Source of the DNA: an uncultured Parafilimonas sp.
GTDB taxonomy: Bacteria > Bacteroidota > Bacteroidia > Chitinophagales > Chitinophagaceae
Length of the DNA stretch: 64,000 nucleotides
NCBI GenBank assembly: GCA_903882935.1
Contig: CAIRZB010000003.1
Location: forward strand, 1-64,000
Direction of reading: 5' to 3'
Below, piece after piece: positions 39,565 to 58,697 of this stretch; positions within the stretch are counted from its first letter, which is position 1, and each line of letters starts with the position of its first letter. The notes under the pieces are model-generated. The model was not told where the DNA came from. It made no database searches and was given only the letters and a program-made list of their open reading frames with translations. Made by a program: the position numbers and the translations under genes.

Positions 39565-39586
39565 TTAATTATATCTCTCCCCTTAT

Positions 39587-39668
39587 CCGATAGGCTGCAC
39601 CCATCGCTATTGTATGTCACCCCTTCGCCGATGGGCTGCACCCATCGCTATTGTATGTCACCCCTTCG
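39587..39668. repeat. two tandem 41-bp units between nuoI and nuoH
   Basis: CCGATAGGCTGCACCCATCG... (39587-39627) is followed by an almost identical unit beginning CCGATGGGCTGCACCCATCG (39628-39668), with one difference seen. They sit in the only sizeable gap between nuoH and nuoI. They look like a recent duplication of an intergenic element; the words CCCATCG and CCCCTTCG also occur in other repeats of the window. Confidence 0.8.
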
Positions 39669-54049: not shown

Positions 54050-54541
54050 TTAAATGGGCTTTTTCATAACATAGTCATGCATAAAAAAGCCGCTGCCAAT
54101 GGGTATGTCAACCGTTTCTGCCACTTCAAAGCCGCTTTTTAGGTAATAATGGTAAGCAGGATTGTTTCTGTTAACATTCAGCGAGAGTTCTGTGGCATGG
54201 TGCGCCTTGGCAATGGCAACAACTGCCTGCATCAGGGCTTTGCCTGTCCCCGATTTTTGTATGCCGGGCAGCACATACAGCTTGTGCAATTTCCAAGTTT
54301 TGCCCGGTACAAGTTCGCTGGTGCCGGCAAAGCCAATGGCTTGGTTATCATCGGCTTCTGCTATAAAAAAATGGTGGCCTTGGTCAAACTGTTCTTCCAA
54401 TGCGGCATTGTTGTACATCAACCCTAACATATACTCCAGTTGCTCTGTTGCCAATATTTTTGCATAGGCCACGGGCCAGGTTTCGTGGGCAATGTGCCTT
54501 ATGGAGGCAATATCTTGTTTTGTGGCAGGCCGTATTTTCAT
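54050..54541 (-). CDS. GNAT family N-acetyltransferase
   Basis: A 163-residue GNAT: MKIRPATKQDIASIRHIAHETWP at the N-terminus, LHKLYVLPGIQKSGTGKALMQAVVAIAK with the acetyl-CoA loop, and LNVNRNNPAYHYYLKSGFEVAETVDI at the C-terminus. Cytosolic, substrate unknown. It is only distantly similar to the GNAT at 15257. Confidence 0.9.
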   Translation of the reverse strand: MKIRPATKQDIASIRHIAHETWPVAYAKILATEQLEYMLGLMYNNAALEEQFDQGHHFFIAEADDNQAIGFAGTSELVPGKTWKLHKLYVLPGIQKSGTGKALMQAVVAIAKAHHATELSLNVNRNNPAYHYYLKSGFEVAETVDIPIGSGFFMHDYVMKKPI

Positions 54542-54685: not shown

Positions 54686-54886
54686 GGTTGTGGGGACACA
54701 ACCGAAGGCAAACGGCCGGATTTGTGTAGTTACAAATACCTTAACTAATTGGGATTGTGGAGACACAACCGGAGGCAAACCCCAGGATATGTGTCTTCAT
54801 AAATCCCTATAATTATTGGGTTTGTTGAGAAACAACCGGTGGCAAACGCCCGGATTTGTGTTTTCACAAATCCCTTAGCTAAATGG
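54686..54886. repeat. three tandem 67-bp units with hairpins
   Basis: Units run 54686-54752, 54753-54819 and 54820-54886. Each has a short stem (GGTTGTG/CACAACC; GATTGTG/CACAACC; GTTTGTT/AACAACC), a constant GGCAAAC, and a second short palindrome such as ATTTGTG/CACAAAT. The spacing between equal words is 67 in both steps. Confidence 0.85.
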
Positions 54887-55697: not shown

Positions 55698-58598
55698 TTA
55701 TAAATTAGCCAAACTTTCTTCAATGGTTTTTATCCTTGCCTCGGCATCAGCTTGTTTCTTTCTCTCCAAATCAACCACTTCTGGTTTTGCATTTTGCACA
55801 AAACGCTCGTTACCCAGTTTTTTCAAAACGCTTTGCAAAAAGTTGATTTGGTGGGCCAGGTCTTTTAACAATTCTTCTTTTAAAGCGGCCGTATCCAGTT
55901 CCTTTTCTGTTTCAATGTAAAACTTATCCTTCTCCACAGCCACTACTATGGTATTGGCGATGGCTTCTGCCGTAAATGCAATGGATGCAGCATTTACCTG
56001 TTTTGCCAAAATTGCCTCAATGGCTGCATAGCTGCCCTTATCGTCCGTTTGTATAAACAGCGTTATGCTTTCCTTCGGTTTTACCTGGTTGCGGTTACGC
56101 GCATCCCTTAGGGCCGAAATTACTTTTTTCAGCAACTCAGCGGAACCCAGCACAGCACCATCGGCTTGTGTAACAGGTTGGTATTGTTTTATGCAGAGGT
56201 CGTCAATTGCACCCGCATGCAATTCGTGGTGAATCTCCTCTGTAATAAAAGGCATAAAAGGGTGGAGCAATTGCATCAGCTCCTCAAAAAAGCCAACGGT
56301 TTTTTCGTACACCGCGGCGTCGATAGGTTGCTCAAACCCAGGCTTTACCCACTCTAAATACCAACTGCAAAAATCGTCCCATACCAACAAATAAACGGTC
56401 TTCAGTGCCTCACTCAGCCTAAACTGTTTCATCAATCCATCTACCTCTGCCCTAACTTCCTGCAACCTGTTTTCAAACCAAGTAACAGCAAAGTTACTGG
56501 TCGGTTGTTGCTGGTTACCGGTTTCTGGCAACCTGTAACCAGTATCCTGCCTCCCCTCCCACATTTTCACTAACTTCAACGCGTTCCAAAGTTTGTTATT
56601 AAAGTTGCGGCCTTGTTCCAAAGCCGCCTCATCAAACATCAAATCGTTACCTGCCGGTGAAGAGAACATGATGCCAAACCGTACTGCATCGGCACCGTAT
56701 TTATCAATTAACCCCAACAAATCGGGTGAGTTGCCCAGGCTTTTACTCATCTTCCGGCCCAGCTTATCGCGCACGATGCCCGTGAAATATACATCGTTGA
56801 AGGGCTTTGCATCCATAAATTCAAAGCCGGCCATAATCATCCTCGCCACCCAAAAGAATATAATTTCCGGCGCAGTTACCAATGTGTTGCCGGGGTAATA
56901 GTATTTAACATCGGCATTGCCGGGGTTTGATATACCCTTAAACACCTCAAAAGGCCAGAGCCATGATGAAAACCAAGTGTCCAGCACGTCTTCATCCTGG
57001 CGTAGGTCGTGAATCGTGAAACGTGAATCGTCAATCGGCAATCGTGAATCGTCAATCGTGAATGGTGAATCGTCAACCGACAATCGTGAATCGTGAATGG
57101 ATTGCGCTTTATCCGTTGGGGTCTCTGGATTCCCGTTTCCCGTTTCACGTTTCACGCCATCCCCGTTTCTCGTTTCACGTTTTACGCCATTCCCGTTTCC
57201 CGTTTCACGTTTTACGCCATTCCCGTTTCCCGTTTCACGTTTTACGCCATCCCCGTTTCCCGTTTCACGTTTTACGTTTACCAGCTTCTCCCACGCCTCT
57301 TCCCGCGTAGCGGCCACGGCAAAACTGCCGTCTGGCGCATACCATGCGGGTATGCGGTGGCCCCACCACAACTGGCGGCTGATGCACCAATCGCGTATGT
57401 TTTCCATCCAGTACCGGTACGTGTTCCTAAACTTAGGTGGGTAAAACTTTATGTCTTCCTCAATTACCGCTTGTAATGCGGGTTCACTAATGTTTTTCAT
57501 GGCCAGCCACCACTGCAGGCTAAGCCGTGGCTCAACCACTGTGTCGGGGTTTCTTTCTGAGAAACCTACCTGGTTGGTGTACTCCTCTATCTTCACCAGG
57601 TTGCCACTGGCTTCCAAGTCTTTCACAATTTTTTTGCGCACCTCAAACCGGTCTTCGCCCACGTATAATTGTGCGGCGGGGCTTAAAGTGCCGTCATCGT
57701 TCATGGTATCAATCACCTCCAGGTTGTATTTAAGCCCCAACTGGTAATCGTTCATGTCGTGTGCGGGGGTAACCTTTAAGGCACCGGTACCAAAATCCAT
57801 CGCCACGTAATCATCCGCAATAATGGGTATGCGGCGGTTAATCAATGGTACAAAGGCAAATTTGCCATGCAGGTGTTTAAACCGCTCATCGTTGGGGTTA
57901 ACGCAAATGGCTGTATCACCCAAAATGGTTTCAGGCCTAACGGTTGCGATAGTGATGGAGCCTTCCCCGCCTCCGTCTCCGTTGTCAATTTTGTATTCAA
58001 GGTAGTACAGCTTGCTCTGTACTTCTTTGTAAATCACCTCTTCGTCGCTAAGTGCCGTTTTGGCCCTAACATCCCAGTTAATCATGCGCTTGCCGCGGTA
58101 TATCCAGCCTTTTTCGTACAGGCGCACAAAAACGTCTATTACCGACTGGTAATAATCGGGATCCATGGTGAAGGAGGTACGCTCCCAATCCAAGCTACAG
58201 CCCAGCTTTTTCAACTGCTGTAAAATAATGCCGCCATATTTTTCCTTCCATTCCCAGGCGTATGCCAAAAACTCATCGCGGGTTAGGCTTGATTTGGCGA
58301 TACCCCTTTCCCGTAGCATGCCCACCACTTTGGCTTCGGTGGCAATGGATGCATGGTCGGTACCCGGCACCCAGCAGGCATTTTTGCCGCTCATGCGGGC
58401 GCGGCGTATCAATATATCCTGTATGGTATTGTTAAGGCAATGCCCCATGTGCAGCACGCCGGTTACGTTTGGCGGGGGTATTACAATGGTGTATGGTTCG
58501 CGCTCATCAGGCTCGCTGTGAAAATAGCCATTCTCCACCCAATGCTGGTACCACTTTTGTTCGGCCTGCTGATGATCGAAGTTTTTACTGAGTTCCAT
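55698..58598 (-). CDS. valS: valine-tRNA ligase with tandem-repeat insertions
   Basis: A 966-residue class I synthetase. PNVTGVLHMGHCLNN has the HMGH form of HIGH; GRKMSKSLGNSPD is the KMSKS loop near residue 613; the editing domain and a C-terminal coiled coil (ARIKTIEESLANL) are present. Between RIPAWYAPDGSFAVAATREEAWEKL and LRQDEDVLDTWFSSWLWPF, about residues 440-530, the chain is replaced by low-complexity repeats (VKRETGNGNG five times, then DSRLPIDDSRFTI-like seven-residue repeats), encoded by a 5 x 30-bp array and a 13 x 7-bp array. A further 14 residues near 684-697 (DTGYRLPETGNQQQ) come from six heptamers. Without the first insert the length is about 875, normal for the family. The frame stays open throughout, so the enzyme should be made. 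Confidence 0.95.
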   Translation of the reverse strand: MELSKNFDHQQAEQKWYQHWVENGYFHSEPDEREPYTIVIPPPNVTGVLHMGHCLNNTIQDILIRRARMSGKNACWVPGTDHASIATEAKVVGMLRERGIAKSSLTRDEFLAYAWEWKEKYGGIILQQLKKLGCSLDWERTSFTMDPDYYQSVIDVFVRLYEKGWIYRGKRMINWDVRAKTALSDEEVIYKEVQSKLYYLEYKIDNGDGGGEGSITIATVRPETILGDTAICVNPNDERFKHLHGKFAFVPLINRRIPIIADDYVAMDFGTGALKVTPAHDMNDYQLGLKYNLEVIDTMNDDGTLSPAAQLYVGEDRFEVRKKIVKDLEASGNLVKIEEYTNQVGFSERNPDTVVEPRLSLQWWLAMKNISEPALQAVIEEDIKFYPPKFRNTYRYWMENIRDWCISRQLWWGHRIPAWYAPDGSFAVAATREEAWEKLVNVKRETGNGDGVKRETGNGNGVKRETGNGNGVKRETRNGDGVKRETGNGNPETPTDKAQSIHDSRLSVDDSPFTIDDSRLPIDDSRFTIHDLRQDEDVLDTWFSSWLWPFEVFKGISNPGNADVKYYYPGNTLVTAPEIIFFWVARMIMAGFEFMDAKPFNDVYFTGIVRDKLGRKMSKSLGNSPDLLGLIDKYGADAVRFGIMFSSPAGNDLMFDEAALEQGRNFNNKLWNALKLVKMWEGRQDTGYRLPETGNQQQPTSNFAVTWFENRLQEVRAEVDGLMKQFRLSEALKTVYLLVWDDFCSWYLEWVKPGFEQPIDAAVYEKTVGFFEELMQLLHPFMPFITEEIHHELHAGAIDDLCIKQYQPVTQADGAVLGSAELLKKVISALRDARNRNQVKPKESITLFIQTDDKGSYAAIEAILAKQVNAASIAFTAEAIANTIVVAVEKDKFYIETEKELDTAALKEELLKDLAHQINFLQSVLKKLGNERFVQNAKPEVVDLERKKQADAEARIKTIEESLANL
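56508..56549. repeat. six heptamers inside valS
   Basis: TTGCTGG, TTACCGG, TTTCTGG, CAACCTG, TAACCAG and TATCCTG follow one another without gaps. They encode the 14-residue DTGYRLPETGNQQQ segment on the minus strand. Period 7, total 42 bases, so frame is kept. Confidence 0.7.
57009..57099. repeat. thirteen heptamers inside valS
   Basis: Thirteen gap-free 7-bp units with consensus GTGAATC (variants GTCAATC, GTGAAAC, GGCAATC and so on) on the plus strand. On the minus strand three units make seven codons, giving the DDSRLPI / DDSRFTI pattern. Confidence 0.92.
57131..57280. repeat. five 30-bp units inside valS
   Basis: Five exact-length 30-bp units of the form TCCCGTTTCC-CGTTTCACGT-TTTACGCCAT, with few substitutions, encode VKRETGNGNG on the minus strand. 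Each unit itself is built of heptamer-like CGTTTCC / CGTTTCA / CGTTTTA words, so it seems derived from the same period-7 material. Confidence 0.92.
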
Positions 58599-58604
58599 GA
58601 AGAA

Positions 58605-58697
58605 GTTTATAGTTTACAGTTTGAAGTTTAATGTTTTGTGTTTTGGGTTCTATGTCCCTCCACCCTATGCCTTATACCTGATGCCTCCCACCTTATA
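58605..58697. repeat. two heptamer arrays just upstream of valS
   Basis: Seven units of GTTTNNN form (GTTTATA, GTTTACA, GTTTGAA, GTTTAAT, GTTTTGT, GTTTTGG, GTTCTAT; 58605-58653) are followed after two bases by six units of CCTNNNN form (CCCTCCA, CCCTATG, CCTTATA, CCTGATG, CCTCCCA, CCTTATA; 58656-58697). They occupy the leader of valS and no gene is seen in the 210-base gap. Confidence 0.8.

Follow-up and report, generated by a model that had tools for sequence, protein, structure and literature searches.

In-Frame Heptamer Repeat Arrays in valS and Other Genes of an Uncultured Parafilimonas Species

Rickettsia palindromic elements are about 150 bp in length, and one review counts 44 in-frame insertions of these elements within genes of R. 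conorii (PMC10969869). Tandem heptamers are known from other bacteria. Direct repeats of the word TAACTGA occur in Beggiatoaceae, cyanobacteria, and five Bacteroidetes, and that study describes mostly intergenic arrays, located chiefly upstream of start codons, that block all three reading frames in the 'forward' orientation and are open in the 'reverse' orientation (MacGregor 2015, PMC4679880). In all, 25 ORFs contain or overlap the repeats, including one case near the end of a PurC gene. In recognized enzymes the repeats lie near protein ends, and an RNA polymerase beta'-like ORF is given as the exception (PMC4679880). The same source also relates that seven is the commonest unit length among long simple sequence repeats, and that those in coding DNA mostly have units that are multiples of three (Mrazek 2007, via PMC4679880). 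Heptamer arrays are known to be common, yet they remain unexplained. Our searches of the open-license literature turned up no account of such arrays within numerous housekeeping genes of Bacteroidota, of their polarity, or of the combination of features described below.

The locus considered here comes from an uncultured Parafilimonas sp. of the family Chitinophagaceae and lies in a window of 64,000 nucleotides, by which we mean the whole stretch of DNA that was analyzed. The valS gene (55698..58598, minus strand) is an open frame of 966 codons. Its 966 aa product, valine--tRNA ligase (ValRS), matches NCBIfam model NF004349 at 1071.5 bits (cut-off 704), indicating a full-length enzyme. The gene carries two facing heptamer arrays. 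The first (57007..57099, with the plus-strand consensus GTGAATC) spans 57009-57099 with 13 units according to our unit detector and is placed by Tandem Repeats Finder at 57007-57098 with a period of 7, 13.1 copies, 81% matches, and 0% indels. It is read by valS on the opposite strand as ..DSRFTIH... After a spacer in which the detector finds no unit (57100..57127), the second array (57128..57282, on the minus, or coding, strand) consists of five 30-bp units built of GTGAAAC/GGGAAAC-type heptamers and encodes VKRETGNGNG repeats. Tandem Repeats Finder places this array at 57132-57276 with a period of 30, 4.8 copies, 95% matches, and 0% indels, whereas the unit detector marks units at 57128-57155, 57165-57245, and 57255-57282. 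When the 335,468 scanned bases were shuffled once at the mononucleotide level, the array detector found no arrays. Together the two arrays form an imperfect inverted repeat (57003..57288) that can fold when single-stranded, with a computed DNA folding energy of -44.3 kcal/mol compared to -31.85 +/- 3.46 for shuffles (z -3.60; 0/200 shuffles as good).

The original prediction for this locus had described 13 gap-free heptamers and five 30-bp units lying in frame between the RIPAWY and QDEDVLDTW segments of ValRS. The copy numbers, the absence of indels, and the open frame all bear this out, but a weaker stretch of a CTGGTTA/CCAGTAA type word in the same gene (56484..56561, minus strand, residues about 680-705) had been overlooked. 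The best lag-7 score of this stretch is 14/21, which is equaled in 2/1000 shuffles, and its scores at lags 5, 6, 8, and 9 are unremarkable. It had also been noted that the array passes through all frames yet meets no stop. The gene is indeed stop-free, but this is less remarkable than was implied, as 7 and 3 have no common factor and a perfect heptamer array yields the identical seven codons in whichever of the three frames it is read. What counts is which strand is read, not in which frame. The GTGAATC strand presents a TGA in every frame. The GATTCAC strand that valS reads through the first array gives DSRFTIH and is open in all frames, and therefore no stop is to be expected in the first array when it is read this way. 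For the second array valS uses the stop-prone strand, but because the 30-bp period is divisible by three, TGA never comes into frame there.

The DNA at 57007-57282 corresponds to about residues 440-530 of ValRS. An old, conserved domain shared with relatives would have refuted the proposed insertion, but alignment with ValRS relatives reveals no such domain. From HRIPAWY to QDEDVLDTW, this protein has a segment of 129 residues versus 41-73 in 109 relatives, for a net excess of 56-88 residues. Among the matches listed in a search of the family, alignments of relatives stop near residue 432-452, and those whose second half also appears in the list restart at 524-531. The closest named ValRS relatives belong to Chitinophagaceae (e.g. 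Sediminibacterium and Lacibacter), and two congener genomes, with completeness of 63 and 69%, gave no valS match. Among solved structures, the best relative, 1gax (TM 0.81/0.90), lacks the insert, and its alignment breaks off at residue 427 and restarts at 446. An AlphaFold2 model built with 44 aligned sequences has a mean pLDDT of 83.8, and the catalytic core is mostly above 90. Values below 50 are confined to the two heptamer sites (residues 448-523 and 688-697), and the insert segment (residues 448-523) is predicted to have little order. Gene finders and structure predictors will often meet such loops in this group of bacteria. Two relatives (L086 and L106) carry a Cys4 pattern within the HRIPAWY-QDEDVLDTW segment. 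Judged from this pattern, the segment is a zinc-knuckle-like stretch in some relatives and has lost its cysteines in most of the others. Loss of the cysteines may be the reason why the linker tolerates changes in length, as a segment so little constrained would suit arrays.

The same linker has been hit repeatedly. When DNA of the ValRS rows was examined for 28-bp stretches with at least 16/21 matches at a given lag, lag-7 DNA was present in the linker of 17/110 rows (the window and 16 others), with scores that were reached in 0/300 shuffles. At lags 4, 5, 6, 8, 9, 10, 11, and 13 there were no such rows, whereas lag 12 gave 2 and lag 14, which is twice 7, gave 14. The set includes two duplicate pairs with the same DNA in two collections (L036 = L128 and L077 = L134). 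We excluded hits caused by runs of N (L101 and the first hit of L136) and hits located upstream of the protein (L065 and L068, at window residue 0). Runs of N also inflate the counts that other lags receive elsewhere in these rows. By eye, the linker words differ among rows and at least eight are distinct, including a perfect AGAAACC, AAAAGTC/AAAATTC, GTCGACC, ACCATGG, AGCTAAC, and others, as well as GTGAATGGTCAA, which is accompanied by an inverted copy. One further row (L037) carries an unrelated insert at this position. Elsewhere in valS, 9 rows have lag-7 DNA at residues 678-695, 3 rows have it near 204-207, and there is a single instance at 805. The ValRS linker is a recurrent site for heptamer DNA, and differing words have occupied this part of an essential enzyme independently in related bacteria. 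A genome-wide word family does not stand behind AGAAACC, which is the only one of these words that was tested: G214 and G293 have 2 + 1 matches per genome, two of them within the valS array. With the word almost confined to valS, spread of a family is unnecessary in these two genomes, where local slippage would suffice.

In the Parafilimonas genome, the valS insert shares its word family, GTGAAWC, with arrays at many other places. A search for GTGAATC arrays had been suggested as a check on the original prediction, and three successive copies with up to 3 mismatches give 183 + 129 matches versus 1 + 0 for a backward control. We fetched 43 regions around matches. In one search 40/82 candidates were scored and in the other only the first matches were listed, so the regions represent a sample. 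These regions and the window hold 60 clusters with lengths of 28-421 bp, to which we assigned classes ourselves: 15 are interior to genes, 13 are ambiguous, and 32 are others. The ambiguous clusters mostly lie near the start of a stop-to-stop frame, are perhaps untranslated, and were not counted as interior. The claim that intergenic-type repeat DNA lies within a housekeeping enzyme is upheld by the 32/60 clusters of the same family that are found outside recognized genes. The prediction holds for valS but was too narrow, since this genome has many such genes and the valS linker is hit repeatedly in relatives. What looked like a single oddity becomes a testable route from non-coding repeat DNA to protein.

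The 15 interior clusters are located in 12 recognizable genes, namely valS and 11 others with 14 further arrays, and the frames are kept. Single sites occur in valS, hisS, mutL, gcvP, ribF, and pyrD, in genes for a NadR-like kinase and a VimE-like deacetylase, and in a fused gene for 2-oxoacid dehydrogenase E1 alpha/beta. There are two sites each in ispG, tilS, and a gene for an aminofutalosine-deaminase-like amidohydrolase. In hisS, ispG (both sites), tilS, and mutL, alignment with 7-8 relatives each reveals that the array adds residues to a variable linker, the first tilS site being supported by separate comparisons. For 7/12 genes, the interior position is based on flanking profile matches without alignment to relatives. 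In the E1 alpha/beta fusion, for example, the array (residues about 341-425) sits between an alpha match at 22-340 and a beta match at 429-732. At some of these sites the heptamer sequence of the two congeners is shorter or of another kind, and three species carry three different arrays in tilS. Interior arrays are rarer in G005, another array-rich genome, where they account for 2/42 clusters, one of which is weak.

The arrays resemble Rickettsia palindromic elements in placing repeat DNA in frame within many unrelated genes, where it forms extra, probably tolerated residues. They differ in that the unit is a tandem 7-bp word whose copy number varies and which often lacks an inverted arm, rather than an element with fixed length and ends, and in that the word changes between lineages. 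A member of that class would be a palindrome of ~100-150 bp with a family consensus, unlike these tandem heptamers, which occur in both orientations in 14/60 clusters. In-frame insertion into protein genes is seen in valS and the 11 other genes. By analogy, then, the arrays appear to work like Rickettsia palindromic elements but are not one of them. The likeness to TAACTGA repeats is that the heptamers are mostly intergenic (here 32/60 outside genes, with 13 ambiguous) and have one stop-bearing and one open strand. In contrast to those repeats, the unit here is GTGAAWC, non-genic arrays start after stop codons, and at least 12 genes have interior arrays. Unlike the long simple sequence repeats reported from coding DNA, which are mostly multiples of three (Mrazek 2007, via PMC4679880), and unlike known in-frame repeats, these arrays have a unit length that three does not divide.

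The polarity of the arrays is fixed. When the two facing runs each comprise 4 or more units, the order is always convergent, meaning (GTGAATC)n followed by (GATTCAC)m, with 13 cases to 0 (12 in this genome and 1 in congener G001; two-sided binomial 0.0002, which ignores that two pairs share one gene or one region). With runs of at least 2 units there are 18 convergent cases versus 4, and each of the four exceptions has a run of 2-3 units. Counts in G005 are 2 to 0 (at least 4 units) and 5 to 2 (at least 2 units), and its mixed clusters are too few to replicate the convergent polarity. Arrays outside the interior genes follow a second rule. Read on the GTGAATC strand, 27/52 begin -16 to +25 bp from a stop codon that ends an open frame of 100 aa or more ('genes' being long open frames rather than annotations), versus 0/52 for the other side of the arrays. 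The stop precedes the array in 19 of these 27 and is provided by the array itself in 8. At the level of clusters, 23/46 are adjacent to a stop compared to a mean of 2.44 and a maximum of 7 in 500 random placements, whereas the opposite side gives 0 versus 2.56 at random. With a stricter run of units and a limit of 25 bp, the counts are 17/23 and 0/20 in G000 and 18/22 and 0/22 in G005 (40 regions). The rule that arrays start after stop codons, in the sense orientation, did replicate in another genus. Convergent pairs and starts after stop codons place a hard constraint on how the arrays form.

We consider it likely, with a probability of roughly two in three, that the valS insert is part of a dispersed GTGAAWC family that has spread or grown at the DNA level, and that it is a tolerated loop whose translation is inferred. 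Heptamer arrays would spread or grow by a DNA-level process of unknown enzymology and would mostly end up outside genes. To survive within a gene, an array would have to add a length divisible by three, contain no stop, and fall in a surface linker, and would then be read as a disordered, hydrophilic loop. In the absence of expression, read, or strain data, a translated and tolerated loop is the most likely reading, and its near-neutrality is an inference. The means of spread is likewise inferred: array ends might be copied when DNA breaks, or a hairpin-like element might be responsible, in combination with slippage. Words shared at many loci favor copying or homogenization in this genome, and the near confinement of AGAAACC to valS favors local growth in G214 and G293. 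That confinement would also suit slippage at each site as the whole explanation, in which a chance 7-bp periodicity in a free linker expands in place and nothing is copied between loci. This possibility is unlikely but cannot be set aside, given the eight or more words judged by eye at one linker and the report that, in most prokaryotes, long simple repeats most often have heptanucleotide units (Mrazek 2007, via PMC4679880). However, slippage predicts neither one word family in 60 examined clusters at unrelated places nor the fixed polarity of facing arrays. Any inverted-repeat element would be expected to show such polarity too, and it would suit a hairpin element as well as 3' ends that are extended at breaks. 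A hairpin element of the REP, MITE, or RPE kind, mobilized by a transposase and with the facing arrays as its inverted arms, could account for the 13 to 0 convergence, for a valS fold that beats 200/200 shuffles, and for the five PF01797 genes in this genome. We regard such an element as more doubtful, because at least 2 units in both orientations occur in just 14/60 clusters, the arms can be very unequal (e.g. 42 vs 11 units), and neither constant ends nor target-site duplications were noticed, although no systematic search was made. REP elements with Y1 (RAYT) transposases are similarly small, dispersed, foldable repeats accompanied by PF01797 genes, but here the repeats are tandem heptamers rather than single palindromes and are seldom near transposase genes. 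The three congeneric genomes contain 19 PF01797 matches, and of the 18 loci that were fetched, 3 have 7-bp-periodic DNA nearby (2/5 in this genome and 1/13 in the two congeners), a weak link that does not support a RAYT/Y1 transposase as the mover.

Interstitial telomeric repeats of eukaryotes are short tandem words that are thought to be added at breaks, and their words, like those here, run 5'-3' away from unique flanks. By analogy, a hypothetical break-healing activity in these Bacteroidota might add heptamers to exposed 3' ends, with the word set by an enzyme or RNA template. Both ends of a break would be extended and joined to give a convergent pair, and healed breaks within genes would persist as protein loops where the frame is kept. 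If true, this would account for the convergent polarity, for the way arrays lead off from stop codons, and for the differences in word between lineages, but the idea is speculative and we hold it to be improbable. Even less can be said for an array that is kept for a function, either as a length-variable switch in which loss of one 7-bp unit causes a frameshift or as a useful loop. Slippage of heptamers would shift the frame, and the mismatch-repair gene mutL has one array. Essential enzymes are nevertheless poor targets for phase variation, the units are degenerate (81%), the loop is absent or unrelated in relatives, and perfect 7-bp runs are little longer in genes than outside (median 12 vs 9). 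The prospect that the insert is an error of assembly or consensus, or is removed from the RNA or protein, is slight. The draft assembly has 114 contigs and repeats are hard to assemble, but an error is unlikely because the frame is intact in valS and is likewise maintained across the other 14 arrays, spread over 11 genes, a judgment made without reads. No terminator, intron, or intein feature that would point to removal was noticed in the insert, for which no dedicated tool was used.

The heptamer word is widespread beyond this genome, as it is found with up to 2 mismatches in 92/394 genomes and 46/101 genera of the family. One congener has 30 + 19 matches and the other has none, whereas G005, from another genus, has 218 + 258. 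Backward controls are zero save in a few genomes (G021, G075, G364, and G365). Within the sampled clusters, in-frame higher-order periods are not clearly favored in genes, since the best period is a multiple of three in 5/15 genic versus 4/32 other clusters. Facing arrays occur in 7/15 genic clusters versus 5/32 outside, a weak, post hoc difference (Fisher p 0.034). Directly upstream of the valS start codon there is also a heptamer stretch with the word AAGTTTA (58603..58636), for which Tandem Repeats Finder reports a period of 7, 4.9 copies, 77% matches, and a score of 40.

Outside genes, the tandem 7-bp arrays (consensus GTGAAWC) begin immediately 3' of stop codons in the sense (GTGAATC) orientation, and practically never follow a stop codon on the opposite strand. 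With genes taken as long open frames rather than annotations, 17 of 23 extragenic arrays from the genome of the window's own organism (regions L146-L187) start directly past a stop codon in sense, against 0 of 20 for a stop on the opposite strand. An array-rich genome of another genus (regions L256-L295) gives corresponding counts of 18/22 and 0/22. The biggest cluster seen, at 56578-57783 of contig C98 in the window's own genome (L181), is flanked by short frames and is composed of facing runs of 42 and 11 units, then of 23 and 19 units.

Heptamer arrays also reside within enzyme genes. One occupies the linker of the mismatch repair gene mutL (L175:3099-3154), where slippage would shift the frame of mutL itself. 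Another forms the linker between the alpha and beta parts of a fused 2-oxoacid dehydrogenase E1 (L154:3098-3350). In the ValRS linker, between HRIPAWY and QDEDVLDTW, two relatives carry other DNA. The ValRS of another Bacteroidetes MAG (L037:2501-5209) has a differing, non-heptamer insert (ADLQSVRKNNGTDYKSAPA) near the same place; this insert looks similar to what a palindromic repeat common in Bacteroidetes yields when translated. The linker DNA of a second relative (L122) contains a TCCCGATAGCCATCGGGA-like palindrome twice, in place of plain heptamers.

Tandem Repeats Finder reported two further repeats in the window. A 67-bp repeat at 54688-54886 (3 copies, 79% matches), downstream of the region of ORF 54050-54541, looks like a separate repeat family. 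The other is a 41-bp tandem repeat at 39568-39668 (2.5 copies, 90% matches).
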